A stretch of DNA of 64,000 nt from NCBI GenBank assembly GCA_015039315.1, contig WIDE01000032.1, positions 137,907-201,906 on the forward strand, written 5' to 3'. This DNA comes from Clavulina sp. PMI_390. Lineage: Eukaryota > Basidiomycota > Agaricomycetes > Cantharellales > Hydnaceae. The first letter of the stretch is position 1; the number at the start of each line of letters is the position of its first letter. A program made the translations under genes and the position numbers. Shown one piece after another: positions 28,927-63,181 of this stretch. The notes beneath the pieces are model-generated. The model had not been told where the DNA came from. It did not search any database and worked only from the letters and a program-made list of their open reading frames with translations.

Positions 28927-29657
28927 CTACCACCACGAGGGCGGCCAGTCATCATCCTCGTCACTTTGTTCTCTGCTAACTTCTTCGTAGATTCGCTGAC
29001 GTTCTCCTTGATCGTGTTTCATGACCATCCATCCTAGTATGATCATCTCCACATTGATATTGGATGCAGTAGGTGCCAATTTGAGCGTCGGTCCCGGCGA
29101 TTTCCTAAATAAATAGTCGTTGATTTCGTATCGTCCTACTGGCTGGCCGCTAGGATCCAAGAGCTGTCGAGTAGTGAATATATAGACATTAGAAATGAAG
29201 GGAGGAAGAAATCGATTTAGCTAAGTTACACCGCACCTTAAACTTCCTCGTCCATTTGTGGTCCCCAAGGGGAGTGCGTACTACTCTTGACCTATAAAGA
29301 TTTCCGGTTGACCTTGAGAGAATAGACTAAAGATCACGAAGGCAACACTTACCACCCGTCTCCTGATGAAGTCCACGGGAATAAATTCGCAACGTGGTTC
29401 TTTACTCCATGATAGGTGATGTGCGCTACCCCAGAACCCCACGTCTGGAGCTCGCTTGTGGCAATGAGTTTCCTTGATGCAGGACCGCCCCCAACTGTAG
29501 AAGGCTTCCACAGATAGCTCGGAGCAGTTTGTGATGTGTCATTTTTTTCAATCCAGTAGGTTTCATTTGTTTGTGGATTTCTGATAGTCGTCTCGCGGAA
29601 ATTATCTGACGAGAAGAAATAGGTGACGCAATCAGGTTTTGGTTTGAATAATGGCAT
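28927..29657 (-). CDS. DUF6593-like protein, array copy 2
   Basis: Three exons, 29353-29657, 29237-29291 and 28927-29163, giving 198 aa. Exon 1 (305 nt) and exon 2 (55 nt) have exactly the same lengths and phases as in copy 1. Conserved blocks are MPLFKPKPDCVTYFFSSDNF, TIRNPQTNETYWIEK, GSGVAHITYHGVKNHV, SRVVRTPLGDHKWTRKFK, LLDPSGQPVGRYEINDYLF and NVEMIILGWMVMKHD. It is a close paralogue of copy 1, with an acidic Asp-rich C-terminus. Function is unknown. Confidence 0.82.
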
Positions 29658-30781
29658 GAGGGCCGGAAAAGGGGGGCAAACATGGCAAGATTCAACTTCT
29701 CGAGTCTTATAGTGAAGCGGGGCCCCGCGTGCACTGCCTGACGTGCGAGAATGCAGGCAGCCACGGGTACAGGACTCCGGTTATTGTAGATCGGGCGCGA
29801 TGACGATTAACCATGAATTGAAAATGGAGGATCGATGGCAAGGGTAGGGACTCGGATGCTACTATTGGACCCCTCCAGTTGTACGCGCAGCGGAGGTCGA
29901 AGCTATTAAGAGCTGGGAGAAATACTTAATCAAATAGGCATCAACTGCTTGCGTCTCGATGCGACTTACACGTCAACAGGTGCCCTGGGACCTCCGTAGA
30001 ATTTCAGGAACGAGCGCATGACCGGTTCACTCTAGGCGGCTGGAAGCACGTCAGGAAGAAATAGTCTGCGGTCGTATTATAGCTTCGGTGTCTAGGCACC
30101 GCTTTGTATGATGTAAACAAGGGTTAAGACCAGGAGCCGATGACAGGAGCACAGCAGCATCGCTTGGGCGCGCCAGGTCTCTGCGCATCATAAAGCTTAG
30201 AAGAAAAAAATAAGGCCTTGGTAACAACAAGCCTTTTGAATTTCAGAGGTCAGTAAGCTGTCCCAGATTCTCAGGGAGACAACTCATCATTGTGGGGATA
30301 TTCTTGTCGAAGCCGATGGACGCACTCCACACTAAAATAAACCAAGTGGAACGACATGAGTACACTTAAGAATGCCCATGCCCTTTGGCAGGGTAGCCTC
30401 GACTCATCTCGCGAAACTGCTGACAGGAAACCTTTCTGGCCTCCGCAAAAATTGGCCTTACTCCGCAGACAAGATCGAATTCCAGAATTATCTCTGATAA
30501 TCTGTTAATCCGCGGGCAAGTTTGATGCAAATTCGGAGAGAAATGACAAAAAAAAAACCACAAAACACAAAACGTTGCGCTGGTCACTACGGCCACGACA
30601 AAAACAAGCGACATAGCGAATGGGGCAACGGGGCGTGCCTGTGGCACGTTGGCTCGGAGTCTAGGAATGAATTTCCCTGGAAGTTATTTGGGCTGCATAT
30701 GAGAGTTATGTACTAGCAAAACAAGCGAGTATTGTTGGTGCTTTTATCAACACAGTAGTTTGATGTGGATGCATGGCTTTG
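29658..30781. other. 1.1-kb intergenic region in the array
   Basis: Nothing coding could be supported. I looked for decayed copies of the neighbouring family and found none here. An A run lies at 30548-30556. Confidence 0.5.
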
Positions 30782-31477
30782 TCACTCTTCTTCGTCACTG
30801 ATCGATTCCCCGATTTGATCATGATCATGTTTATGCTGCTGCATAACTATGCATCCTAATATGATTAAATCAATGTTAAGATTTGAGGCTTCGGGTTTGA
30901 GTGTGAGCGTTGGTCCTGGTGATTTCCTGAACAAATATTTATTGGTCTTGTATCGCCCGACCACCTGGCCAATAGGGTCCAGAAGCTATTGGATGATAGC
31001 AATTAGATAGCAGAAGGAAATGGTGAGGGTTATCGAAGCGTGCGTACCTCTAATTTCATGGACCATGCGTAGTTCCCGGCAGGTGTGTCTATGAGGCTTG
31101 TCCTGTGCGTTTACGGGATCGGCACCAAGAAGATCGAAGGTTTTGAATCGTGGTACTCACGCTAGGACCCCACGGGGAGGCTGCGATAGCGCCCATGGAA
31201 ATAGCGCCCGAATGTTCATCTTTACTCCGTTGTAAGTAATGTCCTTGTCGTTATAACCGTAGTACTCGATTTTGGCCACGAGGGTCCTTGACATGGGGTC
31301 ATCTCGAGTAGAAGCGGGCTTCCAAAGATAAATCGGCAATAACCACCCCCCACTGGGTCTCTCAACCCAGTAAATAACATTGGTCTGCGGATTAGTGATG
31401 GTTACAGTGCGTGCATCGTTGGATGAGAAGGAGTATGTGATCGGCTCAGGTTTTGGTCCAAAGAGTGGCATGGGCAT
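30782..31477 (-). CDS. DUF6593-like protein, array copy 3
   Basis: Three exons, 31161-31477, 31048-31102 and 30782-30985, giving 191 aa. Two ATGs are possible: 31477 gives MPMPLF, while 31471 gives MPLF, the start seen in the paralogues, so the latter is likelier. Conserved blocks are PKPEPITYSFSSNDARTVTI, NPQTNVIYWVERP, DKDITYNGVKMNIRALFPW, TSLIDTPAGNYAWSMKLE, LLDPIGQVVGRYKTNKYLF and LNIDLIILGCIVMQQ. Exon 2 is again 55 nt. It is more diverged than copies 1 and 2 in the middle of exon 1 and has a shorter, acidic end (ISDEEE). Confidence 0.8.
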
Positions 31478-31933
31478 TAGAAAGGAGAAGGTGGCTAGTG
31501 GAGTTTGAGTTCTCGATCCTTGAAAGCGAGGTCATGCCTCAGGCGCACCGCCTCCGGAAGGCCCAAATGCAGCTTGCTGTGTGAGAAGGTACGGGCGCGA
31601 GGGTCCGCGCTGTTGATGGTGTAATTTTGGAACGATGACAGCTTGGTGGTGAATTGGAAATGATGAGTCCCTGTGCGCAGCTTTGGTCAATGCTAGTGCC
31701 TTTGGGCTTTGGGTACTGACGGCGCCAATGCTATTCTATGCGGCAAACTCATCGGTGAGTCTACGAGCGACGCTGCATTCAGGAAACATAGGAGCAGCCT
31801 GCACGATTGGTTAGATAATGATACCACATAAATGCCAGTTTCAAGTGTTGGTGACATACAGGGAGCTACCAATCCTCCTGTGCCCGGTTTTTTTTATTCT
31901 TTCTGAGCTCTTCTTAGATCCAATGCCATTAGA
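31478..31933. other. Intergenic region between copy 3 and the decayed copy
   Basis: Upstream region of array copy 3. No feature was recognised. Confidence 0.45.
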
Positions 31934-32334
31934 TCATTTTTGCACAGCCATCCATGCCAGGATGATCAACTCGATGTTAAGATTTGAGATGGTGGGTGAC
32001 AATTTGAGTCTGGGGGTTTCTCGGACAAGCCATTATTGGTCTCGTATGGCCCAACAAGCTGACCATCAGGTTTGAACAGCTAAACATAGTAAAGAGACTG
32101 ATATCAAAACCTGAATGCGCACAAATCAGACTGAGTTTGCCGCGAACTTCTCAGTCCATGCTCTCCGGACGCTGTGGGAATGATACTTTTCCTGTGCATG
32201 TCATATAACGATGTCAAAAATTGGTCTAGCGTTGGGTGCTGATGATGAGCGAGCATAACACAGTTAGAGCCACTGCTGCCATTTATAACCTTCTCTGTCA
32301 GCGACGCTGCCAGATACCAGGAAGCTACTAGCAT
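31934..32334 (-). pseudogene. Decayed DUF6593-like copy
   Basis: The minus strand here keeps pieces of all three exons of the array family but cannot code. Near 32334-32270 a trace of the exon 1 end remains (LVASWYLA..., aligning with LVAKIEYY... of copy 3). At 32191 a proper acceptor precedes KSIIPTASGEH, which matches the RTIPTPMGEY region, then a frameshift precedes WTEKF. At 32079 an acceptor precedes LFKPDGQLVGPYETNNG, matching LFDPNGRMVGRYETNDY, after which a second frameshift leads into LKLSPTISNLNIELIILAWM. The 5' two thirds of exon 1, including the start, are missing. It lies between copies 3 and 4 in the same orientation. Confidence 0.75.
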
Positions 32335-32524
32335 CGCTCGAAGCGGGGGGGCATATGCTTAGGAAACTTGTGGCCTTCAACGATATAAGAGTATTCATGA
32401 AATCATACTCAAAAAAGCAGCCCCCGTAGCCATGTTGAGTGGGTTATTGGATATCAGGGATACCGCAAATACGATCTGACCCAGACCTGAGCACCCGCAA
32501 TGTTCACCGTTCTTGCTACCGCCA

Positions 32525-33200
32525 CTACATGGGGTGAGTTTTCATTCGTTTGAGGATGTGTTCCCATTCTTCTTCGTCATATTTCATGGCCATCCATGCC
32601 AATATTACCATATCAACGTTGACATTTGATGCCCTAGTTGCTAGTTTGAGGGTCCCAGTTGGCGAACCCTTGAACAAATGGTGGTGAGTCTTGTATTGTC
32701 CAACCTGTTGGCCGTTGGGATCCAACAACTAATAGATGATAATTTTCTAGTTATCGGGGGCGACGGAGCAAAAGTTCGCCGAGCGGTGACTTGCCTTGAA
32801 TTCCTTGTTCCATTCATAATTCCCAAGCGGGGTAGGTATGATTCTCGTCCTACGATTATTAGGGTCAGGAATGAGGGATGAGGGCAAGACAATAAAGTAA
32901 CGCCCACCGCCGATCTTCCCAATATTTTGAGGGAAACATGCTCAGCATGCCCTTCCGCTCGCCATTATAAGTGACATGCTGAAGTCCAGGCCATGCAGTG
33001 TGCAGCCCAATAGTGGCGACGAGGATCATTGGCAAAGAGCCATTTTTGGCGGACGGGGATTTCCAGAGAAGAAGGGATTCAGGATATTTCTCAATCCAAT
33101 AGGTCTCATTTGTTTGAGCATTGGTGATGGTCGTCTGACGAAAATTATCAGACGAGAATAAGTACGTAATTGGCCTGGGTTCTTGTCTGAAGAGGGGCAT
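32525..33200 (-). CDS. DUF6593-like protein, array copy 4
   Basis: Three exons, 32908-33200, 32795-32849 and 32525-32728, giving 183 aa. The ATG at 33200 yields MPLFRQEPRPITYLFSSDNF; the frame upstream lacks an ATG. Other blocks are TNAQTNETYWIEKYP, HVTYNGERKGMLSMFP, TRIIPTPLGNYEWNKEFK (55-nt exon 2), LLDPNGQQVGQYKTHHHLF and VNVDMVILAWMAMKYDEEEW. The second intron begins with GCAAGT rather than GT, a GC-AG intron: no GT donor nearby keeps the frame. Product of unknown function, as for the other array members. Confidence 0.8.
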
Positions 33201-35695
33201 GATGTACAAAGAAGGGAGGCGAGCCAGCAGGAGTTCGATTCGTTAGTTCTTATGGCCAGGCTGACTTCAAATTGCTTCTTGGAGCTGGAGACCTTGGAGG
33301 AGGAGGAGGAGTGTTGGAGGTGGCACAGCCTTGGTGGTACTCGCTCGGAGAACAGCGCTGGCAGTTGATAGTGAGCGCGGCAAGCGCGGTGGCAGTCCGC
33401 TAGTTCACAATAGTCCCCAAATCGTGAGGTTATGTACACCCAAGGAATGGGCACCACCCTTTGTAAATGGCAGTAGAGTCAATGGATCTAGACGGTACTT
33501 GTAGGATTAGACGAAATATGGTGGATGACGTAAACTCTGGAGATCATTGCCAGGAACTTACAAGAAGGATTGATTGAAAAAAAGAAGTACTTGGCGAAGA
33601 GCATGCACAATTCTGCAGCAGCTGTCAAGAATTGTCACAAGCGCCCTTGGGTACTCGTATCATAAATCAGAGTAAACATTGGGCTCCAGCGTCTGCAAGG
33701 TGCCCGGCATACGCTGAGCAAAAGAGACAAGGCCGGAAAAAGAAACGAGGGCTATCAAGCGAACCACCTTCGTCTACTGAAGGGCAACTTTTCTCAGTTG
33801 ATGACCCCCACTGTCGAGATCACAGCGATGCGGGTTTTCAGTTTAGATAGGGAACCATTCAGCTCATGTATAGGTCATTGGAAGACTCCATAAGACTTGC
33901 ATGGCATAATGGCAGCGTGTGAAAGGGTCTTGTATCAACGACGTCTGCAAACATCACCCGTGAAGTTCACAACCTGCACTCTAGTAGACCTCAGCGATGC
34001 TCCTATCTCAATGAGCCTACAATGCTTCACGGGAATCCTGATTTTGCTTCGAATCTGTTTCCCTCGCCCGTAGATCCAGTTCTGCCTGTTGAGCTGCCGT
34101 TAGTCGGTCAGACGGTGTTTGCCCTCGGCATACTCGTATTGGCAGTCCAACCCCCATACCCACATAAGAGGGCTTCTTCAACTCAATCTCGTCATTTGCG
34201 CCTACAAGTAGGCTTCTGCGCGCCTTGCTTCTTTGTTCAGCCAGTGGCTCTGGGTCCATGGGACCGGTAAGCATATGGCTTCACCATCCCCGATGAACAA
34301 AGGAACACCGATTCATTCAATGTTCTTTCCTTTCTATCCATCATCACTTCGCTCTTTTCTTAAGCCCTGTTCTATTCCCCGTTCCCTTGACAGCAATCCT
34401 TCGCAACCATACCCCATCCTACGGAAATATAATACCATGCCAGCCAATCCATCCAGTCAGGCCGAATCCATGTGGGCGGCGATTTTGATAATCGACGGCT
34501 ACCTCGGTGGCTGGCATTTCCGGCGGAAACTTATGAAAGAACCAGGGAGGCCGGATTTTCCATCTCAGATCTCCACACATTGGTCCTAGCTCCACCTGCC
34601 CGCAACAAGTCTACCCCGCGCAACCCCGATCATTACGCGCGTAGGCGGTCGGGAACCCCTGTCCGAGACCGTGTCAGTGTGAGCGCTACCATACCCTGAC
34701 ACAAGTTACAAACAAAACTCCTGTCCAAGGTGGTGATAGTTTGGTTGGTCTTAGTGCTCATGAGCGAGGAAATCTCTAGGTTTTCCAATGCACACTTCAA
34801 ATCGTTTGTTGTGCTCCCACCAGCGCACACGGTGCGTCCTCGGACACACTGCGCGCACCGTTCCAAACAGGAGGGAAGAAAAAAAGACACAAATTTCACG
34901 GGTTCACGAGATGAGATGACTACAGAGGGCAAATTGAGAACTCTGGACAGAAAGGACACTCCAATCAATCCACGAAACAAACCCAACTACAATTGATCAC
35001 GAAATTAGATCGATCATTATGAAGGGTGCGGAAACAGGGATCACGAGAGAGAAAAGAGAAAAGAGAAATCAGGCTAGATAATGAGCGGGGTGGGTGGAGC
35101 GGAGTCTGGACCGTGTGGATCGACACGCGTGCGGCTTGTGTGCGCACAATAGTCATCGGGAAACGGATGAGGCGAGATACGAATCCGGAGGAAAAGGGGG
35201 AAAAAAACTAATGAGAGTGGACTTGGAACATAGCATATGTGCTACCGTCCTCAGTGGATTGGGAGGCTCGAAGAAAGAAAAAAGTGGATAGAAATCCAAT
35301 CAAATAGCGTCCGAGATAAAGCGAAACACGAGACCAGGTTGCTGTTAAGCACGAAAAAATAGACGGACGCATAGCCAATGATGAATAAGATTGGGTGGGG
35401 TGGGGGGAGTATGGAACCAGAACAGTGCCAGACTGGGCCTTGAGGGATCATGGACGGGAGGTGCCGCAGAGTGCGGTCCTGCATGGAGTGGCGAAGCGTT
35501 GAGAGGGGATGATGGGAGAGGTAAAGCTGCTGGTTGGTTGGGGGAGGGCACGCGGGGCGGGACGAGGGTGGAATACTCAATTATGGAGGCGAAGAAACCG
35601 AGGAAGGTAAGGAGCGCAAGGTGAGGACGAATAAAAGGCGGTCCTTTCTTTAGAGGACCCAAGGAATCAGCGTGAGGTGGATGATGTGAATCCGC
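33201..35695. other. 2.5-kb gene-poor region
   Basis: Promoter of array copy 4 on the left and 3' region of the peptide precursor on the right. Short frames (for example near 34020-34590) lack introns, motifs or sensible composition. A purine-rich GGAGGAGGAG tract lies at about 33297-33312. No tRNA, transposon end or long repeat was seen. Confidence 0.45.
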
Positions 35696-36842
35696 TCAGT
35701 CCAGGTCCTCTATTGAGCGCTTCTTCCAGTCGATTTCATAATCGGAATCCGCCTCGCGTTTCTTCCAATCAACCCCAAAGTCTTCCACTGGTGTTACGCG
35801 CTTCCAAGTAGGGCCACCGAGGGCACCGGTTTGAGCTTCAACAACAGGCTCGCGCTTCCAACCAGGCCCACCGAGATATTCGGTATCAGGGCCAACAGGC
35901 TCACGCTTCTTCCAGTCGGTGCCACCCCCACCAACATCCACGACAGGTCCAGTGCGCTTCCAGTCCTCGCCGCCTAGCTCAGCGGCTTCCACTTCGCGCT
36001 TCCAGTCCCGACCACCACCGAGTGAATCGGTTGCTGGGCCTACACGCTTCTCTTCAGATACGGCCTACAAGAGCGAGACAAGGATGAAGATAAAGGCACA
36101 GAAAGAGAGCCACAGAGAGAGAAACGCCGTGAAGGGCCGAAATAATGCCATGCAAGAGAGTTGATGATTAGAATGGACGCGGGCGAGGAAATGAATGGGC
36201 GAATTTGTGTGAGAGTTGAGAGGGTGCCGAATTAGGACATAGGCCGTTTGAAAATGGGAGATGACGAGGCATGGGAGGGATGGTCGAGCGCAGTGGGATA
36301 GCCAAGACGGCGGTACGTAGATACGGACACGGCCGCAGGAACGAACAAGACGGGGAACATGATGATCAACGTCATAATCAGCTTAGTCATCAAACGGCGC
36401 TGGCGAAACAGGCGAAAACGAAGGGGGACGTACATCGCGGGGAGCGGGTAGCTAGAGGGGACAAGGTCGAGTAAAGGGGGCAGAGAAGAGCATGAAGCAA
36501 GCATAGAGGATCATAATCGTCAGCGACTCGAGTTATCGGAACTTGGCGCTTAAGACTCGGAAAGAGCCAACAACAACCCGGGTGGTTGGACAGGAGACAG
36601 AGAGAAACATACAGAAGGGAAGTTTGCAGACGAGCCCTATAGAAGGAGAGAGAGATGAGAAAAGAGCCAGGAACAGAGGAAGGCGTGAGCAAAAAGAGTG
36701 GAGCGAAAGGAAAAGTTGGAGTAGAAGGGAGTAACAAGGGAAACAGGAACTGATGGCTCACCTTGGGAAGTACGATGGGGGCTGCGGCGACAAGGGAAAG
36801 CAGAGAAGAGGAGGCTGCGAAGAACAGCGTAGTTGAGCGCAT
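35696..36842 (-). CDS. Candidate Kex2-processed secreted repeat-peptide precursor
   Basis: Exon 1, 36762-36842, codes MRSTTLFFAASSSLLSLVAA followed by APIVLPK: a clear signal peptide ending at AAA-P. The last exon, 35696-36064, codes 123 codons in the same phase: a lead AVSEEKR, then seven units of 13-18 residues, each ending in Trp-Lys-Arg or Trp-Lys-Lys-Arg, then SIEDLD and stop. Lys-Arg is the Kex2 site of the late Golgi; cutting there and trimming basic residues would release seven acidic peptides with C-terminal Trp. Several units begin EA, EP or EV, dipeptides that a Ste13-type aminopeptidase might remove, as in alpha-factor. The two exons are 697 bases apart, long for this genome. Two small in-frame exons (36613-36636, 36434-36451) are possible inside but unproven. 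There is no homology I can name; fungal Kex2-processed repeat proteins are the best class. Confidence 0.75.
35717..36043 (-). repeat. Seven degenerate Trp-Lys-(Lys)-Arg peptide repeats
   Basis: Units in order of translation: VGPATDSLGGGRDWKR (35996-36043), EVEAAELGGEDWKR (35954-35995), TGPVVDVGGGGTDWKKR (35903-35953), EPVGPDTEYLGGPGWKR (35852-35902), EPVVEAQTGALGGPTWKR (35798-35851), VTPVEDFGVDWKKR (35756-35797), EADSDYEIDWKKR (35717-35755). The first five share a Gly-Gly two to four residues before the Trp; the last two replace it with an acidic stretch. Spacing varies, so this is a protein-level repeat and not a simple DNA satellite. Confidence 0.88.
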
Positions 36843-41217
<4,375 letters not shown>

Positions 41218-41572: not shown

Positions 41573-42824
41573 CTAGTGGTTGAAGAATATGATAATGAAT
41601 GACAGTGATACACCAAGATGCAGTGCGGCGATGAGAACCACAAAAAGGCGAACAGCCTTGGCCTCAGCAGATGCAAGTATCGGGTAGGTGTTCCGAAGGA
41701 GGAAGAAGAGCGAGAGACCTGCTCCAATTCCTCCCGAAATCCAGCGAACAAGAGGGAATGGGGCGATACAGATGAGGGAAACAGGACTATAAGGAGGGGA
41801 TTCAAACGGATGCGGGAGATTTAGAATGGCCAAGAGGGGATGGGGGGTGAGTATGACAGGATAGGAGCTGATATCGAGGCACACTTACATCCAGACAGTC
41901 ATGCCGTAGCCCCAGATGGAGACAGCATCCAAGACGCTCCATTCTTGTACACCGATATACCTCAGCCATGCCCACAGGCCAACAGGTATGCCAATGCCAT
42001 ATGTATAGACTAGCCCGACTGCCACAGTGAGCTGCTTGAAGTCGTAATCCCATTCCTAAGAAGACGCATCGATGACAATATTAGAACAACTCGCAACGAG
42101 AGGTGGTCGAACGAAGGCAGCATACCTTTGCATTAAGCCAAGCCGTTATTGATGCTGATAGTGATGAAAAGACGAAGAGCGAGAATATAACTGTGGTAAG
42201 AGTCCAGAAGGGCCCGTACATGTCCGGACGAGATTCAAGGACGACGGAGACGAAGTCCTCTCGCGGTATCATCGTGCTGTAGCATCGATAAAGAACCTAT
42301 ATACGGAAGAACTCAGTGTCCATCGCGGGGAGAAGTAGAGTGTAGCGCACCGTTTTTGGTGTCCACGTCGAAGTACTTTTGGTAGTACTGCAATGGAAGC
42401 AACGTCAGGAGCCATCAGGTAAGATTCAGTAGTGGCCGCGTAGTGATTCTCACGTCTAATGACCAGAAAGGTGCATTCGTATTATCAGAGCGCACATAGC
42501 CTGCGGTAGTGAACGGCCAAGCGGTCAGAGTAGTGCGATGGCCAGTACAAGATTCAGACTCACCACGAGATGGGTCAGAGGGTCCACCAGATGGAGAAAT
42601 TGCCCGAGCTGGTGCTGCGCCTGTGTCTGTCCCGAGAAAGCCTACAATACTTGGCATAAGTATTCCACATCACAGCCAGTAGACCTCAACGTACTTTTGA
42701 ATTCTAGCGGCTCTGCACCTGTTTCATGCTACAGAAACACAAACCCATGTCATTTGAGGCGATAACTGATATCATAAAACAAGCTCACATCATCTACTTC
42801 CAGAGTCTGATACTGGGCAGCCAT
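41573..42824 (-). CDS. Yip1-domain Golgi membrane protein (YIPF1/2 type)
   Basis: Eight exons: 42789-42824, 42695-42728, 42564-42641, 42454-42500, 42351-42387, 42126-42296, 41889-42055, 41573-41786, about 260 aa. The cytosolic N-terminus reads MAAQYQTLEVDD and APFWSLDYYQKYFDVDT. Then come RPDMYGPFWTLTTVIF and four more hydrophobic segments, including VGLVYTYGIGIPVGLWAWL, ISGGIGAGLSLFFLLRN and FVVLIAALHLGVSLSFIIIF. DLYGPFW and YxYG are Yip1-domain signatures; YIPF proteins act with Rab GTPases in ER-Golgi traffic. Oddity: joining exon 5 to exon 6 with canonical GT-AG borders leaves one base too many. The excess falls beside an A5 run (T5 on the plus strand, 42353-42357). One A fewer would read FDVDTKTVLYRC and restore the frame. 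This may be a sequencing error or a true lesion. Confidence 0.85.
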
Positions 42825-43033: not shown

Positions 43034-46000
43034 ATGGCTCAATCCCCAACTGTCAGCGCTATCACACCTCGCAGCCTGTCACCGCTACTTCTAACCTGGC
43101 GCTTATTGCATAGATTGCTATCCCCCGTAAGAAAACGGACGAGGTGGACTGGACATCCCCTATCCGCAGCATCATCTCGCATTCATACGGCGAGAGCCCC
43201 GATTCCTATGCTGCTGAATGTGCTGCACTGCAACGATGTCGCCAAGACGCTGTGAAAGGTGCTGGGAGCGACATGACAGCGCGCGATCTACTGTACAAGT
43301 ACTTTGGTCAGCTAGAGTTGCTCGAGCTGCGGTTCTCGGAGATCAAGGTCACTTTCCCCTGGTACGTGCGTCATTCATGTTCGATCGGGTGTATTTCGTT
43401 TCGGAAGCTGACTGTGTGTATCAGGTACGACGCATTTACGAGCAAGTTGACGACGCAAACATCACTTGCCTATGAGAAGGCATCCATCATCTTCCAGATG
43501 GCCGCGACTCATTCGGCAGTCGCGTCCACGCAGAACCGCTCTGACCCTGAAGGACTCAAGCGATCTTTCCACTACTTCAAGACTTCTGCGGGGATGTTAA
43601 CGTACATCAACGACAACTTTCTTCACGCCCCGAGCACTGATCTAAGCAGAGATGTGGTGAAGCTTCTTGTGGGAATTATGCTCGCCCAAGCTACAGAGGT
43701 CTTCTTTGAAAAGCTGATCGACGAGAAAAAGAGTCAGCCAGCATTCAATGCCAAGGTCGCTGCACAGGCTTCATTCCTATACAATGGTCTCGTTGAGGAG
43801 GTGAAAGAATTTTACGGGAAGAATATTTTTGACCGAAACTGGGTGACTCTTTTGCAGGTAAGAATGCTCTCTATCAACGTCAACTGCGCACGGCCCCTGG
43901 GCTGAAATCTGATGCTCTTGTGTTCTTAGATCAAGGCCAAGTATTTCTCTGCCTTGATGCAATATCAGCAATACCTTGCTGACACTGCCAAGGCCAAATA
44001 TGGCGATGCACTTGCGCGTATCTCGCTTGCCGAGTCCCTCTCAAAAGATGCCAACAAGCTCGCAATATCCTTCAACTCTTACTTCATCCCTTCCGTCACC
44101 CCTGAGATCCCTGCTGATGGTGGCACCGCCATCATGACCCTGACTAAAACGCTGATGACACTCACAGCTGAGAAAAAGGCCGAGGCGCAGCGCGAGAACG
44201 ACTTGATTTACAACGCTGTGCCTGTTCCCGAAGCTACTCTGCCAGCTGTCGACAAGCTCGTGGTTGCGAATCCTATCACCATTCAGGAAGTGTACGCAAG
44301 CGCAGAGGTGCAAAAGGTCATCGGCCCCGACATGTTTGGGAAGCTGATCCCGCTCAGCGTGCACAAGAGTGCAAGCATCTATTCCGAGGAGAAAGCCAAG
44401 CTCGTTCGCGCCGAGGTGGAGAAGGCTGAAGATGCGGACGTTGCTCTTGCTTCGGGCTTGGAAAGCCTTGGTCTCCCTGCGGGTCTGCAAAAATGGAAGG
44501 ACCTGGTGGCAGGAGAAGATCGAGCGGGGAGTGGAGCGTTGCCTAGGGAGTTGGAAGTCTGGGCAGACGAAATTGAGGCGAAGGGTGGATTGGGTGGCGT
44601 CGACGGCATGCTCAATCAGCTTGGCGCCCCGAGAGCTGCAGTGACGGAAGAGTTAGCTGCAGTGGGGCGAGATCTGGACAACGAATCACGAGAATGTGAG
44701 AGGATGCGGGTAAGTACCTTTCGGATCGGTAATCCAATCTCCAATTACTCCGCCATCTAACAGTAGTCTCTGCTGTATCTAGATCAAGTATGAGCATGAG
44801 TGGACCCAAGACCCCTCCGCACCAAAAACCCGCGCTATTCGACAGGAACTCAAGTCCCTTTCTGATTCTCTCGCTGCTGCTACTTCCACGGACGAGCAGG
44901 TCGTCAAGCTATGGAATGGGGTTCGCCCTGATATTGCGTTGTTGCTTTCTGGCCCTGACAACCTTGAGAGGTTTTTCAAGGATCAGGAGCAAGCCCAAGG
45001 GGGCGCCGCCCCAGCTGCTAGCTTGCTAGATCTAGGTGACGATCTAAAAACCGGTGACGATGCAGTGCTGGCGGAGCTCGGCGCGTCGGTCGCTGCGATC
45101 GATGAGGCTCTCGGTAAATTGAACAAGATCAAGCGGGAGCGAGGTGAAGTACTAAAAGACCTGAAAGAAAAGGTGCGCTCGATGACTGTATTCATATCGA
45201 CGATAATACTAAGACAATGCGTCTCTACAGATCCAAAACGATGACGTTTCTCACCTGCTCCTCGTCAACCACCGCGGCGCCAATGCGGAGCAGGCTGTGT
45301 TCACCACTGAGCTAGAGAAATTCCGGCCGTATCAGGCACGAGTTACTGCGACTGTTACAAGCCAAGATGCCACACTGGATGAAGTATCGAGGGTCTGGAA
45401 GTCACTGAAGGGTGGAAAGGGGAAGTCGTGGGTTAGAAAAGCGGAGGCTTTGGAGAAGCGGAGAGGGAACTTGATTGGCCGCTTTGTGCAGGCGAAAGAG
45501 ATATGGGGTCAAGTTCGAGAAGGAGTCGGGTACGTTTGTCGTCTTCTTGAATTCTACAGCTCTCCCTCCGCGACTGATCTTTTTACTGTTTGGGATCTTA
45601 GCAAAGGGCTTGAATTTTATCGCCAACTAGGAAAACTCGTCAAGGAGCTACGGACCCATGTCGATGAATATGTCAAGCCGAGGAACGCAGAGCGTGAGCG
45701 GCTCGCATCTGAGCTGGAGAGCAGGAAGAGGATTACCTCTCCTTCGGCTCCATCGCCTGCACGGCCTCCCGCACCACCGTCGTCGGCGACCCCATACGAT
45801 CTTTCTGGATCGCTATCCTCAATGTCCATCTCTTCTCCACCTGCTCCACCGCAACCGTCCGTAAACAGCTGGGAATCTGCAAGTGCGCCTCCACGGCCAC
45901 CAGCTCCACCATCGACGTCGGTCTATTCTGCTCTTCCTCCTCCGCCTCCCATCCCTCATCAGTCTAGCTACACACAAGCTCCTCCTAGTACCAATCCTAT

Positions 46001-46505
46001 TCCATCCCCTTACGGCCTTCCGCCTCCGCCTCCACCCCCGTCTCAATATTCATCTCCCCCGCCTCTATCTAGCCCTCCACCACAAGACCCGTATGCGAGT
46101 CTTTTCAGTACTCCTGGGCTATCATCGCAGTTCTCCCTCGGTGCGAGCCCATCTGCCCCTCCCGCTCCTGCCGCACCTACCCGACAAGGCTCCCTCCCAC
46201 CCCCTCCTCCGCCACCTCCATCTCTCTCCCAGTCATACTATCCCTCGCCTCCTCAGCAGCAGCCGCAATACGGAGCGTATCCTCCACCACCCCCGCAGGT
46301 ACCGCAACAGCAACAGCAGCAGCCAGCGTATTATCAATCTCAGCCGTACCCTCAGCAATATGGTGGGTACCAGCAGCCTCCACAGGCCGGTTATCCTGCG
46401 CCGCCTCCGCCCCAGCAGCAAGGAGGACAGCAGCCTCCATATGGATACGTGCACCCTACGCAGCAGCTGCAACAGGGGAGGCCATCTCAGGGTTGGGGGT
46501 CTTAG
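43034..46505 (+). CDS. BRO1: BRO1-domain protein, vacuolar sorting protein Bro1 (ALIX family)
   Basis: Seven exons: 43034-43051, 43114-43361, 43425-43857, 43930-44709, 44783-45172, 45231-45529, 45602-46505, giving 1023 aa. The BRO1 domain (about residues 5-390) shows IAIPRKKTDEVDWTSPIRSI, LLYKYFGQLELLELRFSEI, TFPWYDAF and AYEKASIIFQMAATHSAVAS. A helical V-shaped domain follows to about residue 780. The C-terminal 220 residues are rich in Pro, Gln, Ser and Tyr, with repeated PPPPP blocks. Bro1 is recruited by Snf7 in ESCRT-III at endosomes and brings the deubiquitinase Doa4; in fungi it is also linked to Rim101 pH signalling through its paralogue Rim20. The Pro-rich tail and overall size favour Bro1 over Rim20. 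The 72-nt intron 45530-45601 has no stop and a length divisible by three, so retention would insert 24 residues. Confidence 0.92.
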
Positions 46506-46680: not shown

Positions 46681-48241
46681 CTAATCAGATACCTCCCAAT
46701 ATTTGGCGGTCTCTGTATAATCGACCTTGAGACCATCGAACATCAGGAGTGCATTGCTCACAGTCATTCCCAGGTCAGGCTGAACCGACACGTTTTCAAC
46801 ACGAGTCGAGAACCATGCGTACTCCTCGACGCTGCACTGCGATAAGACGAGCGCACGGAGGGGCTGGACGAAGTGTGGCCGGCTTTTGATGCATATTGAA
46901 GCGTGCCGTCGCAGATTAATTGATTCCTGCAGGAATGCGAGTGGCATTGGGGGATCGTTTGGCTCGTGGATGTTCATGGCCAGGGAAAGGGTATGAAGTC
47001 TGGGGACGGGGAAATCCCCCGATTCGTGAACACTTTGTGTGAGCACTGCGAGCATCTTGAGGAACTGGTGGATGAACGGGAAGTTTCCATGAAGGAAGAT
47101 CTCCTCCAATAGCGGCGTTTCCGTAACCTGAGCAAGATAATTCGGTAGACGATTTGGTCAAAATGAACGAAAAGGAGGAGTAAGAGGAAAAGTAACGAAC
47201 AAATACGAGCAGCTCGGATATTAGCTCTTCATCCGTATAACACCATCGTTCGCGTGCACTGGTTAGGATAAACTTTCTCAGTTCTGGGGTCGTTACGTCC
47301 TGGAACCACAATGAAAGGAACGATTTGTGGGTAGCGATCCCCAAATCAAGCACGCGGAGGCAGGGCAGTTCGATCGGGTCAGTAACCTCGCCATCCACTT
47401 CGCCCTGAGCGGTAATGCGAAGGGACACTAATGCACGAGCCTGCATAAGGATCTCCCGCCATTCCTCCCATTCATGGATGAAGGGGACGTGGACGCATAA
47501 ATCAACCACGGTGGCGAGGATGCCTGCCACGGAAAATTCAAATGGGGCGCAATAGAGAGTGAGCTGAGTGAGAAAGGGGAACAGTGGGTTCGTAGGCGAG
47601 GTGATCTCTAGGTTTGACATCGGCCTTTGTTGGCCGATTTCACCCGTTAATTGCGTGCGGAAATTGCGATGGTGCATGGAGAATGGGAAAGTCCCTGGCT
47701 TGTCCACTTCGATAGGAGACACCCGGATGTTCAGTTCCTCTAGGTGAGTGGCCACGAGGAGCGAGTTTGTCCAGATCATGAACTTGCTCAGCGAGACATA
47801 GTCGCACTTGATGAGATGGACTGATCGCCACCTATGTGCAGTGCCGAGAAGTCTGTGGTACTGGTCTGTAGCACCTTTAGGTATGGGATAGAAGAAACAT
47901 CGACCAAGACGATACGCCACGATGTCGAGGGGTAGCTTAGCTGCTACACGGTCCAGCCAAAGTGCCAATAGTTCACTGGACCATCCGTACGGAAGACACG
48001 TCCAAAGTGAGGGGGTATTGATGCAAGCCTCTCTGAACAGGCGACAGGTATGGGTGATCGCCAGGAGCTGGGTAGGGACGTGGTATTCATCAAGTCTACC
48101 TGGATCTACCTCACATAAAATAGCGAAAATAGTGAGCAGAATCTCTGTAGGCAGAGGAGAGGAGGGTGCAGGGACTCTGGGGGTCGCAGGGGCTCTAGAG
48201 CCCATATCAGACGTTAGTCCGGGTAGAATCGCGGGCGCCAT
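46681..48241 (-). CDS. F-box-like protein, intron-containing paralogue A
   Basis: Two exons, 47201-48241 and 46681-47127, giving 495 aa from ATG 48241 (MAPAILPG); the next in-frame ATG is 48205. The F-box-like start is SSPLPTEILLTIFAILCEVD, followed by THTCRLFREACINTPSLWTC and ALWLDRVAAKLPLDIVAYR, the usual agaricomycete F-box continuation. Leucine-rich segments fill the middle (LFPFLTQLTLYCAPFEF, ELPCLRVLDLGIATHKSF). Exon 2 is 447 nt, exactly as in paralogue B at 51098, and both start after the same splice point before VTETPLLEE/VTPLLED. SCF substrate receptor by family; target unknown. Confidence 0.82.
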
Positions 48242-48862
48242 CGAACTTGAGAGGGTACGGCGTATCGCGGGCTGGGTTATGGGGGAAAAGATGGCAGTGC
48301 AAAATTTTGGATGCCAATCTGATACCCACCAAAGCCCACCAGCTGTGCGACTGTGCAACTGAATCCCACTGCCTTGACAACATGTGGACGGTATACTGAG
48401 AGGTCATCTTGTATATCATATTCGTAAGACGCGACCCTGGGTTGTTACGCGTATGGTGTGGTATATTATCGGCTGTGCCTTGCCGCCTTGGCCCAGAAGG
48501 GCCAAATAACGCGTCCTTGACATCAACAGAGCCAAGTTCGGGTTCAAAAACGTCTTCTGACCCCTCCTTCGGTGCAGCAATCCCAATTCTCATGGAACAC
48601 GTCCCAATTCGCGTCTTTTTTTGGTGCGCTATACCTTCGCGCCCTGGCTGGACGATAGTCTCTGTTGGGGTTTCATTTCCTGTCAGGTAGCCTGACTCAG
48701 ATCTCCGCCCATCCCCGTTTCCATATTACCAATAAGAATATCATGGAGCCGGCTGTCCGCTCAGAGCCAGCATGGTCCTTGAATGACCCGGTTCGTTTGT
48801 ACCCTTTCACGTCGCATAGGGTACCCATACTATACTCAAATGCCAGTTGACGATTAACATGA
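48242..48862. other. Duplicated divergent promoter region of paralogue A
   Basis: The region 48440-48670 resembles 52860-53084, the spacer between F-box paralogue B and CHS4/SKT5; both carry the run CAACAGAGCCAAGTT. It is the promoter part of a segmental duplication; the CHS4 fragment is listed separately. Confidence 0.6.
48671..48800 (+). pseudogene. Decayed 5' fragment of a CHS4/SKT5 copy
   Basis: About 130 bases align by eye with the first codons of the intact CHS4/SKT5 gene at 53085-53215. Shared stretches include CCCCGTTTCC / GCCGTTTCC, ACCAATAAGAATATCATGG / ACCAACAAGACTACGATGG, GAGCCGGCT / GCGCCGGCT, and CCAGCATGG in both. The start ATG is changed to TTTCAT and a one-base length change breaks the frame. 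It stands in the same orientation, and at a similar distance from F-box paralogue A, as the real gene does from paralogue B. Confidence 0.65.
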
Positions 48863-50634
48863 TCATTTTACTCCGTTGATAATCACCGAATCCTCCCTGT
48901 CCATACAGTCTTGCCTAGCCTGTAGATCATAGTCATCTACATATGCACCCATATCATTACCATGGAAAATGCCGGCGTCTGGTACGGTCACGGACTCGTG
49001 GAAGAGGAGGAGGAAGCTCTTGCAGCCCACTGCCACAAAGAGGCGGAGAATACGGAACTTCCTCCATCTAATATATACCCCAGCCCAATTACAAATTTAT
49101 AGCATATCAGAGTCCGTAAAGCAAGCCTTCAACAGGACTGACTCACCGTGAAATGTGGCACTAGCTCGCGAAGGGCTTCCCAGTTGTCAATCTGGTGGGC
49201 TCCGAACTCTTCACGCGGTGGGAGCGTGAGGTGTGTTATGATGCCGCAGCGAGCAGAAACAAAAAGGCGCATGGAATCAAGGAGATGGCCTACATCCCTC
49301 CCTAGCAGACGCAGCTCTGTGAGCTTAGGAAGAAGGTTCGCTCTTTGCCAGCCAGGCTCCTGAAGCTTCTCTAAGCGAATATCAAGGGGCCAGTAACCAA
49401 TGCGATCGCGTTTCAACGTAAGTGAATAAATCCGCGGCATCGCGTTTGCCTAAATCAGCATCAAACAACGCTCCGTGAGCATTCATGTGGCAGCACTATG
49501 GCAGATTCTTACCACAACCGGCCACATATCCCTCTCCATGGGTTCTGACAGGGACATCCCATTCATGATAAGATGCTCCACATTCGGCATTCTAACGCTC
49601 CGAAGTAGCTCCAACAGTGGATACGTCCCGCGAGTCCTTGGCGACCGAACTTCTAAGTATTGTAGTGCATCAAGTTGTACATCGACCAGTCCCCGAAACT
49701 GTCCAGGCGTAAGTTGGAGCAACGTCAACGATATCAGGCGAGGAAGAAGAGTGATTGTGCCGAAGTTCGGCAGCTTTGCGTTAACCCTGGAAACAGGAAG
49801 ATGGACTTCTGGGTTAGAAGTTACTGTGATATCCACACCTCTCGAATAAATGCGCTCAATTGAGAGTAGTTGATCGACATCTAAAATGATCGTGGAAGAG
49901 CCAAATGCAATGATCGAGAGATCACGCAGGTCCAGGCATTTGGAAGTGATGGCTCCAAGACAGTTACTGAGGACACTGCCATCGAAGAAGCCACACGAGA
50001 ATGTCAGCGAGAGCGATGAACACATCGATAACGAGATAAAGAGCTCCCTCTTGAAGGCTTGGCGCTCAGGCTCACTGAAAGCGAGCTGTGCTGGGGGACG
50101 TGGAGGGGCAATAGGGAAGAGATTTCCGAACATAGCAGGCATCAGCGTAATCGAGAGCAGGCGATGTTTCGCCCTCTCATTCCATGCTTGAATAAGGTTA
50201 ACGTGCCAGTGATCCCAATCAGCATGAGTGAATAGCTGTGGCGTGTCAAGAATCCAGTCCCGCCATGCCCTCGATACTTGGGACACTCGAAGAATGCTCT
50301 TTGTGTCCCTTGGATCTCCTACGACAAGAAGGATGATATTGTGAAACACGTCGAAGGGAACGACGCTAATGGGGTCAAGCGCTGATTCATCATTATGAAG
50401 ATAAGGGGACACTGGTGGATCAAGATGTTGGAGACCTTGGGCCCCACCCTCGGGGGTCAATTGGGTTTGACGGAGCCCACGGACAGTGTCCTGAGTTGTT
50501 TGAGAGTGAATATCTCCGCCGCGAGATTGAATAAGGTAACTAGGTCGGAACGGTATTAGCCTTCGGAGAACTGATGGGATGAGCCCTCCCTGAGCGGCAG
50601 GAGATGAACCCTTTGAAGAGCTGAAAAAAGACAT
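48863..50634 (-). CDS. F-box-like protein C
   Basis: Three exons, 49513-50634, 49147-49449 and 48863-49057, giving 539 aa from ATG 50634 (MSFFSSSKGSSPAAQGG). An N-terminal low-complexity stretch is followed by the F-box-like segment ISVVPFDVFHNIILLVVGDP, DTKSILRVSQVSRAWRDWIL and DTPQLFTHADWDHW. Leucine-rich elements follow (LFISLSMCSSLSLTFSCGFF, LLPRLISLTLLQLTPGQF). The last exon's acceptor is placed at GGAAG (49058) because it keeps an open frame of 65 codons (FRILRLFVAVGCKSFLLLFH, ending SVIINGVK); the nearer TATTAG acceptor would end after 36 residues. This C-terminus is less certain. The gene is not a close relative of A and B, though it lies between them. Confidence 0.75.
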
Positions 50635-51097
50635 CGGACCACTTCTTTGTGGAACGAGCGTCACCGAGATAAAGTATGGACGCAGTGGCTATTTGGCATA
50701 GAGCTGTTAGATTCCGTGCTATTCGATCCAGGGGGTAGCGCACGGGGCGGTTGGCTCAACGAAACAAACAGGACTGAGCACAACGTCACATCTGGTAACC
50801 ACCTGCTCAATTATTCCCACAACCGAACCATCAACATGGGTCACTAGAAATCTCTCGCGAACGACGAAACCAGGAAAGAATTGGTCATTAACCATTGCTG
50901 TCCGTAACTATACATAGCACATGCTTCGAAATAGTCCCAACCATGCGTCATCAAGGCTGCAGCCAACGACTAGATTGCCAACTACTGGATTCACTGCTTC
51001 CCGTACTCTTATACTGCAGCAGGAAAAATGCATGTTATATATCAACTTCGTATCTAATGCGGTACTGACAGCATTTACTCCACCGATCGACGGCTGG
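50635..51097. other. Intergenic region
   Basis: Upstream region of F-box C and 3' region of F-box B. Nothing recognised. Confidence 0.45.
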
Positions 51098-52608
51098 TTA
51101 GTCCGACAGGTCCCAATATTCCGCGCCCTCTGTGTAATCCACCTTGAGGCGATCAAACATGAGAAGCGAGTTGACCACACTCATCCCCAGGTCAGGTTGA
51201 ACCACCACATGATTGACATGACCCGAGAACCACTCGTATTCCTCGATACTGCAATGTGACAGAATGAGCGAGCGGAGGGGCTGGACGCGTTGCAGCACGT
51301 TGTTGATAGCAGCATCCTGTCGCAAATTGATGATGTCCTGTAAGAAGGCGAGGGGGAGGGGGAGGTCGTCTGGCCTTCCCTGACTAAGATTCATAGCCAG
51401 GGAAAGAGTGTGAAGCTCGGGCATGGGATAATCTCCCAAATCCTCAAAGTTTTCTGTTTGTAGTGACAACGTCGTGAGGAAGCTCTGGATAAATGGGAAG
51501 TTTCCATGAAGGAAGACATCCTCTAATAGAGGCGTTACCGGGATCTGAACAACAAGAGATAGAAGATGATTATATTTGTGAACCAGGATGAAAGTAGGTG
51601 GAAACTAACGAAGAATTCAAAGAGCTCCGAGATCAGCTCGCCATCGGTATCCCATAATCGCTCACGGGAACTAGTCAGAGATAACTTTCTAAGTTCAGGG
51701 GCCGTCACATGACGGAACCAGGAGGAAAGAAACGATTTGTGGGTGTCGATGCCTAAGTCAAGCACGCGAAGGCATGGTAGCTTGACTGGGGCAGTTATCC
51801 GGCTGTCGACTTCACACTGGGCGGTAATGCGAAGATATTCGAGTGAGATGCCCTGCAAGAGGACCGACTGCCATACCTCCCATTCACTGATGAAAGGTAT
51901 ATGGATGCATAGCTCGACAACGGTGGAGAGCATGCTTGCCGCGGAGAATTCAAAGGGCGGGCAGTAAAGAGTGAGCCGAGAGAGATGCGGGAACAGGGAT
52001 GTAGTAGGTAGAGGGATCTCTAAGTCAAACAGTGACCTTCGCTGACCAATCTCGCTCGTCAATTGGGTGCGGAAACTACGATGGTGCATGGAGAACGGGA
52101 AAGCTCCTGGTTCGTCTACCTCGACGGGAGCTACACGAATATTCAATTCCTCGAGGTGAGTAGCCGCAAGCAGTGAGTCTGTCCATGTCATGAATCTCTT
52201 CAGCGAGGCGTAGTCGCATCTGATGAGATGGACCGATCGCCACCTGTGTGCAGTAGCGAGCAATCTGGGGTATTGATCTGGGGCGGTCATCGTTCGGAAA
52301 TCGACAGAAGGCTGGTCCAGGCGACACGCCATCAGATCAAGTGGTAATATGGTCGGCATCCGGTCCATCCAAAGAGCCAACAATGCGCTGGACCATCCAT
52401 ACGGTACACAAGTCCAGAGCGCAGGAGTCCCGATGCAAGCCTCGCGGAATAGTCGGCAGGTGTGGGTGAGAGCAAGAAGCTGTGTGGGGACATGATACTC
52501 ATCAATCGTATCTGGATCTAACTCACAGACGATGGCAAAGATAATAAGCAGAATCTCTGTAGGTAGAGGAGAATAGGGTGCAGGGGTTTTGGAGACAACG
52601 TTGGGCAT
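51098..52608 (-). CDS. F-box-like protein, intron-containing paralogue B
   Basis: Two exons, 51610-52608 and 51098-51544, giving 481 aa. ATG 52608 (MPNVVSKTPAPYSPLPTEIL) follows a minus-strand TATAAG at 52669-52674. It is a close paralogue of gene A throughout: YSPLPTEILLIIFAIVCELD, DEYHVPTQLLALTHTCRLF, WRSVHLIRCDYASLKRFMTW, HLEELNIRVAPVEVDEPGAF and, at the end, LKVDYTEGAEYWDLSD against LKVDYTETAKYWEVSD in A. Exon 2 is 447 nt in both. Its promoter is shared with CHS4/SKT5. The function should be that of an SCF adaptor. Confidence 0.85.
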
Positions 52609-53084
52609 TGCTTCTAATGGAATCGCAGGTCTCAAACTTAGACAAAGGCAGGAAGTGGGCACCAATGACTTATAAAGTTACAGTATGGCAGTGCTGAAAT
52701 GCAGATGGTCACTTGATACTACCAGCACCCCACCAGCACCTACCAGCTGTGCAACCCTTGACAGGGACCACGAGGCTGACAGAAAGCACGTATTTTCCGA
52801 GGGAAATATTTGGTGTGATATTTACACACAGAACACATCCTTCGCCATCACACGTGGTAGTGGGATATTATTGGCTTTGGCTGTGCCTTACCGCCACCTT
52901 GGCCCTAGCGGCCAAACAACGCACCCTGGACGTCAACAGAGCCAAGTTTAGGCTCGAAAACATATTGCTCACCCCCCTGTCGGTCCAGCACTCCCAGTTC
53001 TCGTGGTGCACGCCCGTGTTCACGTATTTTTTTAGTGCCGTATATCTGGACACCATCTTGGCTCCACGATAGCCGTTCGTTGGC
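52609..53084. promoter_or_regulatory. Divergent promoter of F-box B and CHS4/SKT5
   Basis: 476 bases between two outward-facing genes. TATAAG on the minus strand at 52669-52674 serves the F-box gene; no clear TATA precedes CHS4/SKT5. The right half is duplicated at 48440-48670. Confidence 0.5.
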
Positions 53085-61193: not shown

Positions 61194-62516
61194 CTACCAA
61201 CGAAGAGATAAGGTGTTAAACTCTCGAGTACACTCACCGCACCAAACCGTAATGCCCCACTGGCCAGCTCCGTCCTTGCGAGCGGTAAACTGCGACGCAA
61301 CGACTTTACCGCACTCATCTACTTCACCCAACGAGATGCGAACCTCCTTCAACATCTTTGGGCAAGGTCCAGACACGAGAGTCTCGCGCAAGGCAAGCTT
61401 GATGTCTTCAACGAGGGCCGGCGCGAGTGCGACCTCATAAGTATCGTCTCGCCCCTGTTTGTTGCCCACAAAAGAAAGAAATTTTTGGGAGAAGCTTTGA
61501 TGGAGTGTAATGTGAACGGAAGTGAGAGATGGGAGGGAGAGCAGGTCATTCAGAGGAATTAGGGAGGGAACGATCTCTGGCCTGAAATCGGTCCTGAACC
61601 AGGGAGGGATGAAGAGTTTAGTCTCCAACTTTTGGAGGGATGGGTGGGAGAGGAGTCTTAGGGGATTGATGTTGCCAGTCAAGGGATAACCTTCCTTCAT
61701 CATGATGTTTAGGTGCAGTTTCTGCAGCGAGTGATGACCCCGCAGCATATCACCAAACCGTTTTAGTTCAATGGATTTCAATCCTACAATAGAGCCTTCT
61801 TCTAAATGCTCTAGGCAACCACGGCCCTCGAGGGTAGAGAGCAGCTTCATGGAAGCGCACACTCGCCGGAGATGAGAGAGTGTGTGGTCAGGGAGGTGAG
61901 AAAATGACAATAAATCGGGGATTTCGATCGAAGAAACATTTCTAAATGCGCGCAGGAGCTCGATTGCAGGACCACTGGGACCGATGAAGGAGAATTCAGT
62001 CAACCAGGCTGCGAATGGAGCTTGAGCGAGAGCAGCATAGAATTCTTTGCTAAATGGGGGTAGCGACAACCAGGCTTTGTCTTTAGTAGTATCAATCATG
62101 CTTGGTACAAGGTGAAGGCATTGGAGATTTTTGAGAAGGGCGAGGCTTTCTCGGAAACGAGCCCATCCTTGCTGTGGATCAGCCTGCCGACCGCCATGCC
62201 ACCAGCCTTCTGGGGGAGATATACCCCATGTGATGCATATTTCCCTGATTGCCGCAGCACATGCTGGACTGGCAAGGAAAAATCTGATGAAGTCAGTCAG
62301 ACGACGCCCATCCTTTTGCATCAGCTGAATCCTGACTCGACGCCATAAATAGGGAACTGATAGCTCATGAGAGGCCTTAGAGCAGAGCGCAAAAGACTTC
62401 AAGTCCTTTCGCGACAGGCGACAGATAATCTCGCTGACCAGCTCATATGGGAGAATATCCGGAAATGAGTGGATATGCGACGCGAGATCGCTTGACTTGG
62501 AGGGTCGTTGCCCCAT
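61194..62516 (-). CDS. F-box-like protein, intronless tandem copy G
   Basis: Single exon, 440 aa from ATG 62516 (MGQRPSKSSDLASHIHSFPD). Blocks: LPYELVSEIICRLSRKDLKS, YLWRRVRIQLMQKDGRRLTD, FSKEFYAALAQAPFAAWLTE, CLEHLEEGSIVG, HHSLQKLHLNIMM, LIPLNDLLSLPSLTSVHITL and VASQFTARKDGAGQWGITVW, ending FNTLSLRW. It is the right-most member of the array. Confidence 0.87.
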   Translation of the reverse strand: MGQRPSKSSDLASHIHSFPDILPYELVSEIICRLSRKDLKSFALCSKASHELSVPYLWRRVRIQLMQKDGRRLTDFIRFFLASPACAAAIREICITWGISPPEGWWHGGRQADPQQGWARFRESLALLKNLQCLHLVPSMIDTTKDKAWLSLPPFSKEFYAALAQAPFAAWLTEFSFIGPSGPAIELLRAFRNVSSIEIPDLLSFSHLPDHTLSHLRRVCASMKLLSTLEGRGCLEHLEEGSIVGLKSIELKRFGDMLRGHHSLQKLHLNIMMKEGYPLTGNINPLRLLSHPSLQKLETKLFIPPWFRTDFRPEIVPSLIPLNDLLSLPSLTSVHITLHQSFSQKFLSFVGNKQGRDDTYEVALAPALVEDIKLALRETLVSGPCPKMLKEVRISLGEVDECGKVVASQFTARKDGAGQWGITVWCGECTREFNTLSLRW

Positions 62517-63181
62517 AGTCAAGGTCTTGTAAATGAGAGATCAGTTACACCGTGCCCCCTCCCCTGGGACCAGATGCAATACTGGGGTGTTTTGCCTTAG
62601 GCTGGCTCAAAGGCAGCAGCCTGAGAGCGCAGGCTCCTTCGTGCAACTCTTGTTTGGCTGCATTGGTCTCACTAAAAATAGAGCGTATATATTTATTCTT
62701 CCTCCTCAAACCTACAGTAATTTCCGTTTGCTCCCTACAGCCGGGGGTGGTACGTGTCTCTTGTATAGACGCGGAGTGGGCAGGACTAAATAGCTGCTCT
62801 ACTAGTCAACTTCTTTGGATTTTTCTCCTTAACCTACGTAGTACCGGTACCTACGAGCACTACGACACAAGTATGAAGCAACCGATACAGATACATAAAG
62901 TGAGGATGGAAAGGGGTTCAGGAGATGGAAACAATAGGAGGGTACAGCACGGTTGAAAGTGTGTAAGGTAATGACAACTCCCTGAACATGAGGAATAGGG
63001 AAGGGAATGATTTGTAATAATAAAAGAAAATGAAAGAAATGTTTTCAGGCTGAAAACAGCACAATGACAGATAGGAGGTGAAAAGAAAACAAATGTCCAA
63101 GGAACACAATGATCGAGCCAAGGTATGAAACCCAGAAATCGCGGGGTATCTGACAAGAAATTTCACAAGATTGATGACAAG
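62517..63181. other. Intergenic region
   Basis: Upstream region of copy G and 3' region of the right-edge gene. No other feature recognised. Confidence 0.5.

Follow-up and report, generated by a model that had tools for sequence, protein, structure and literature searches.

A probable KEX2-processed repeat protein with seven different tryptophan-terminated units in Clavulina sp. PMI_390

Both PMC6339444 and PMC9769878 ask why fungi that do not mate by alpha-factor should carry alpha-factor-like precursors, and the question is raised again by a locus of the basidiomycete Clavulina sp. PMI_390, within a 64,000-nucleotide stretch of contig WIDE01000032.1 (C219; the whole stretch analysed is called the window below). 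A sequence-only reading had described here a secreted precursor with seven peptide units, each closing in Trp before a dibasic site, and had proposed it as a candidate new fungal peptide system. What kind of gene is this, and what would it make? The sequence and coordinates check out, placing the gene on the minus strand from 36842 to 35696. We conclude that it is very probably a gene for a KEX2-processed repeat protein (KEP), one of those basidiomycete KEPs whose units end in Trp, and that it appears to exist in a single copy.

Gene model, repeat units and neighbourhood

Both exons of the sequence-only reading (36762-36842 and 35696-36064) were recovered as described, together with the lead ending in KR and the seven Trp-closed units before dibasic sites. 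The terminal exon, of 122 residues, has a TAG acceptor in front and a TGA at its end. The 697-nt gap between the exons was searched for stretches flanked by a pyrimidine-rich YAG acceptor on one side and a GTRNGT donor on the other; exactly two were found, both in frame without a stop. The features of the gene are listed below, the two microexons being called from splice signals only.

36762..36842, minus strand: exon 1, translated as MRSTTLFFAASSSLLSLVAAAPIVLPK, with the start codon and a hydrophobic signal-peptide-like segment, running to ...AAPIVLPK; donor GTGAGC
36613..36636, minus strand: putative in-frame microexon GSSANFPS, 24 nt, between TATAG and GTATGT
36434..36451, minus strand: putative in-frame microexon LPAPRD, 18 nt, between TCTAG and GTACGT
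35696..36064, minus strand: terminal exon, with the lead AVSEEKR, seven Trp-terminated units, the tail SIEDLD and the stop
36002..36043, minus strand: unit 1, VGPATDSLGGGRDW
35960..35995, minus strand: unit 2, EVEAAELGGEDW
35912..35953, minus strand: unit 3, TGPVVDVGGGGTDW
35858..35902, minus strand: unit 4, EPVGPDTEYLGGPGW, with a Ste13-type EP start; the trimmed form would begin VGP, as unit 1
35804..35851, minus strand: unit 5, EPVVEAQTGALGGPTW, with a Ste13-type EP start
35765..35797, minus strand: unit 6, VTPVEDFGVDW
35726..35755, minus strand: unit 7, EADSDYEIDW, with a Ste13-type EA start
35699..35716, minus strand: C-terminal tail SIEDLD, its EDLD ending common to the metagenomic relative P0003

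By hydropathy alone, the N-terminal segment of exon 1 is hydrophobic, with its top 12-residue windows beginning at residues 13-15, and it ends AAAP. The putative microexons together would lengthen the leader by 14 residues, giving a modelled precursor of 163 residues, and skipping either one leaves the frame intact. When the gap was shuffled with dinucleotides preserved (n = 2,000), at least one in-frame candidate appeared in 65 shuffles and two or more in 4. Microexons of 2-10 residues have been reported for a white-rot basidiomycete, in its P450 genes (PMC1184071), so the putative ones are not odd in themselves. Two observations count against the microexons: modelled introns 2 and 3 show no CTNAY branch point within their last 60 nt, and the three modelled introns, of 125, 161 and 369 nt, are long compared with the gaps of 53 nt that separate the matches in the DPPIV gene described below. 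The four-exon model may hold and is put forward as a proposal; the two-exon model of the sequence-only reading is possible, being also in frame, but in our judgement it is incomplete, since the gap accommodates two microexons whose splice signals are good.

The seven units comprise 14, 12, 14, 15, 16, 11 and 10 residues, none of them identical; the range is 10-16 and not 11-16, as had been given. Every unit closes in W directly before KR (four units) or KKR (three units) and the lead itself closes in KR, making eight KR/KKR sites in all, and the Trp residues of the terminal exon stand without exception (7/7) at dibasic sites. Acidic residues outnumber basic ones in all seven units. The closing pair is DW in five units and GW and TW in the remaining two, with SDW in none. 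The EA or EP starts earlier ascribed to several units do exist, in three of the seven only (units 4, 5 and 7).

The following other features were recorded in the window.

29349-33242, minus strand: three or more short frames in tandem, paralogous to one another, each reading by eye MPLF...TY-x-FSS...QTN-x-x-YW, with no Pfam family at E 0.05
40601-41178, plus strand: split histone H4 gene (by eye; Pfam gives histone-fold families), on the high-coordinate side of the gene
42081-42296, minus strand: weak Yip1-like exon (E 0.0023, below the Pfam cut-off)
43114-46505, plus strand: BRO1-domain gene with an ALIX-type V domain
46919-48403, minus strand: F-box-type frame
49483-50688, minus strand: F-box-type frame, below the curated cut-off
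51535-52677, minus strand: F-box-type frame
61194-62540, minus strand: F-box-type frame

The array and its class

Mechanical ORFs of 86-109 aa are likewise present in antisense frames over the terminal exon, as might be expected if the array were a chance open frame and not a gene; the shuffle tests make that explanation barely credible. In composition shuffles of the 122 residues (n = 200,000) the number of W-(K)KR sites never exceeded two, where seven are observed; with the tokens fixed, the chance that each of the seven Trp precedes a dibasic site of its own, out of the eight available, is roughly 4e-10. A DNA pattern of three successive W-K-(K/R) sites matched five times in the window, always within this gene, and zero times in 100 dinucleotide shuffles. 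The units are alike beyond their Trp, the observed sum of pairwise scores being reached by none of 2,000 shuffles in which the final Trp was fixed. The remaining five frames of the terminal exon hold 0-2 dibasic sites. A relative with the same W-KR pattern and EDLD tail, described below, also speaks against chance.

Likeness among the units is of a distant kind. Local blastp-short aligned only 7 of the 21 unit pairs at all, two of those over 2 residues. Mean DNA identity between units over the nine codons before Trp is 39%, and Tandem Repeats Finder listed no array at the unit region; the repeat array has therefore diverged while its Trp and dibasic sites were kept. Judged from its sequence, the predicted protein is a hydrophobic leader followed by seven homologous, diverged units with dibasic sites directly after Trp. 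No Pfam family was found above cut-off for the modelled protein or for its three relatives.

Across the 39.4-Mb genome the three-site pattern gave seven matches, five of them here and one each on contigs C90 and C260; the reversed control pattern gave one. The two outside matches look like chance: that on C90 reads W-K-K-V and then W-K-H, and that on C260 reads W-K-S, in neither case W-K-R, and no array was found in frames of at least 100 aa around them. By this one DNA pattern, which covers units of this spacing and site kind only, so that other KEPs may exist in the genome, no other W-K(K)R array is found, and the gene is apparently single-copy. Two further candidates were set aside. The second own-genome match (L002, E 0.09) reads as a long unrelated protein without W-KR, and at least 120 stretches with the W-KR pattern in viral contigs were taken, without a control, as chance in a huge collection.

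KEPs have been surveyed in PMC6339444 and PMC7329392. Le Marquer et al. count as KEPs proteins with at least four fragments/three repeats separated by KR, RR or KK, the repeats making up at least 15% of the protein; here seven units are delimited by the eight KR/KKR sites and account for 92 of the 163 residues of the modelled protein. Vogt et al. look for short fragments at least 40% identical, each similar to at least two others. By global alignment, and not the authors' BLAST+ script, each unit here has two to five partners at 40% identity or more of the shorter unit. The trait of the Trp-terminated basidiomycete KEPs, a core ending in Trp before a dibasic site, is seen in all seven units.

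Such KEPs are already on record. As reported in PMC9769878, KEP 2599 of Lentinula edodes consists of a sevenfold SGTGEASAADW, confirmed in fruiting bodies, and precursors of P. ostreatus and P. eryngii yield, among other peptides, MSGVAADW and SGVAADW and carry XA/XP motifs. Every peptide detected there by mass spectrometry from Lentinula and Pleurotus (shiitake and oyster mushrooms) ends in -AADW, and BLAST found many further basidiomycete KEPs with Trp-ended cores. An XSDW motif is described as conserved among Basidiomycota KEPs (PMC6339444). Since basidiomycete KEPs with Ste13 motifs and Trp-terminated cores have been published (PMC9769878, PMC6339444), some of their peptides having been seen by mass spectrometry, the gene does not represent a new system and that proposal is unsupported. 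The accompanying description of a Kex2-processed, alpha-factor-like precursor fits the architecture. Among the matches listed for the KEP and microexon literature there was no paper on this gene or on a microexon KEP.

Lentinula KEP 2599 and Pleurotus KEPs 1091723 and 1439342 (Vogt et al. 2022, PMC9769878) resemble this gene in their dibasic-cut repeats with cores ending -DW, and the Pleurotus pair also in its XA/XP Ste13 motifs. KEP 2599 differs in repeating one peptide seven-fold, whereas all seven units differ here, and the XA/XP starts of this gene are single and not repeated pairs, on three of its seven units. The XSDW-motif KEPs (Le Marquer et al. 2019, PMC6339444), compared by description only, share repeated cores ending DW, but here five of seven units end DW and none SDW. 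For ascomycete alpha-factor precursors, with their signal peptide, Kex2 sites and XA/XP spacers (PMC9769878), the processing logic would be the same; their cores are not similar by eye.

Relatives and processing enzymes

With the modelled protein and the terminal exon as queries, no match was found at E ≤ 10 among 5.8 billion proteins. A composite query made from published -ADW units returned three proteins at E ≤ 1 (7,996 scored candidates): P0001 from Lentinula edodes, a record similar to KEP 2599, and two metagenomic proteins, P0003 among them. W-(K/R)R units number three, three and five in these proteins; as W-KR repeats are what the query was designed to pick up, these units are not independent evidence. 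Each of the three proteins begins with a signal-like stretch that ends AAP(I/T), like the AAAPI of this gene, a by-eye reading from which the multiple alignment departs in pairing the relatives' AAP with LPAPRD of the second putative microexon.

P0003 (122 aa) has, besides this start to AAP, five non-identical W-KR units and a C-terminal EDLD, ending RVEDLD against SIEDLD here; unlike this gene, its units are shorter and G/A/S-rich, and it has no KKR sites. When the last 30 residues of both proteins were shuffled, the last four were identical in 23 of 500,000 trials. In single BLASTP comparisons the terminal exon matched P0003 at E 2e-5, running through the C-terminus, and P0001 at E 3e-4. When the genome was searched with P0003, the window gene was not recovered; the sole match lies elsewhere (E 0.86) and contains stops. 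The similarity to P0003 is weak; the EDLD tail shared by the two predicted proteins is independent evidence of kinship from this one relative. It is conceivable, if rather doubtful, that this gene and P0003 form a distinct Trp-terminated KEP subfamily marked by an (I/V)EDLD tail, with seven different peptides derived from one ancestral unit and a leader whose length could be changed by microexon skipping.

The genome was also searched for the enzymes that such a precursor would need. No kexin gene was found by four probes: the PF01483 profile and the motif HGTRCAGE (present in yeast Kex2) had no match; PF00082 had eight, around seven of which the serine motif is GTSMASP, GTSMATP or GTSASAP against GTSAAAP of yeast Kex2, with no serine motif around the eighth (L146); and the sole weak match to the yeast Kex2 domain (L151) lacks the kexin motif. 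The search went exon by exon with a loose first pass, and a gene split by many introns could be missed. Three kex2 genes are reported for C. cinerea and other agaricomycetes (PMC9769878). The kexin gene has either been missed because of introns or is missing from the assembly, and its lack counts, unexplained, against the KEP reading. It would suit a secreted protein that works whole or after incomplete cutting and has retained its W-KR sites for some other reason, but the exact placement of all seven Trp of the terminal exon at dibasic sites and the processing of similar precursors in Lentinula and Pleurotus (PMC9769878) leave little room for that, and we regard it as very improbable.

Candidates for the other steps are present. 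A DPPIV_N gene on contig C262 is found in three pieces, and a hydrophobic stretch lies upstream of the first piece, in the open frame where that piece begins. This stretch might anchor a Ste13-type enzyme in the membrane, and the gene is maybe Ste13-like. Kex1 belongs to the S10 carboxypeptidase family, for which the genome has 52 exon matches, Kex1 and others together. No PF02116 match to a Ste2 receptor was found in the genome, nor did the control genomes give one.

Proposed products and their role

On the model of alpha-factor and KEP biology, the leader would take the KEP precursor into the ER, kexin would cut after each KR, and a Kex1-type carboxypeptidase would strip off the basic residues and expose Trp as the C-terminal residue. 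A Ste13-type dipeptidyl aminopeptidase would then trim EP or EA from units 4, 5 and 7. Such trimming is argued for because unit 4 without its EP begins VGP, as does unit 1, which has no spacer; it would be partial at best because only three of seven units have an XA/XP start. The secreted products would be linear, acidic peptides, as many as seven different ones. Predicted monoisotopic masses of linear units 1 to 7, with any EP or EA still in place, are 1386.65, 1303.56, 1315.60, 1572.71, 1610.79, 1262.58 and 1241.47 Da.

Two other fates had been suggested for the peptides. As a dikaritin RiPP precursor, the gene would supply Kex2-released peptides that UstYa-type oxidases cyclise into a toxin-like product; dikaritin precursors, too, have a signal peptide and Kex2 repeats (PMC9769878), and UstYa homologues are present in this genome (at least 18 matches). 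This alternative is weakened because none of the matches found to UstYa (DUF3328) lies on the window's contig, all being on C2, C60, C198 and C237, and the mushroom peptides detected are called linear and minimally modified by their authors (PMC9769878); we consider it unlikely. Eleven of the at least 18 UstYa matches are clustered on C2 at about 52-90 kb, several with internal stops (perhaps introns), forming a candidate dikaritin-type cluster.

A repellent-like structural precursor, yielding peptides that cover hyphae or aerial surfaces, would find its parallel in Rep1 of Ustilago maydis, which is also Kex2-processed and whose peptides control hyphal wall properties (PMC6339444). Those peptides have 37 residues, against units of 10-16 acidic residues here, and the suggestion seems to us just as unlikely as cyclisation.

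For a KEP of the Trp-terminated type, we tentatively infer that the most likely role would be extracellular signalling or interaction with other organisms, and not sexual attraction via a Ste2 receptor. In work reported in PMC9769878, six kep knockouts of Coprinopsis cinerea were without detectable difference, and synthetic KEP peptides had no antibacterial activity. If the subfamily is real, its precursor would supply a diversified cocktail of several ligands for signalling or interaction, and not many copies of one peptide, and the EDLD tail common to P0003 may serve as a handle for further members missed by repeat-only searches. With seven different predicted Trp-ended products, and with no second array of this sort found in the genome, the gene would offer a compact test case for the role of these peptides.
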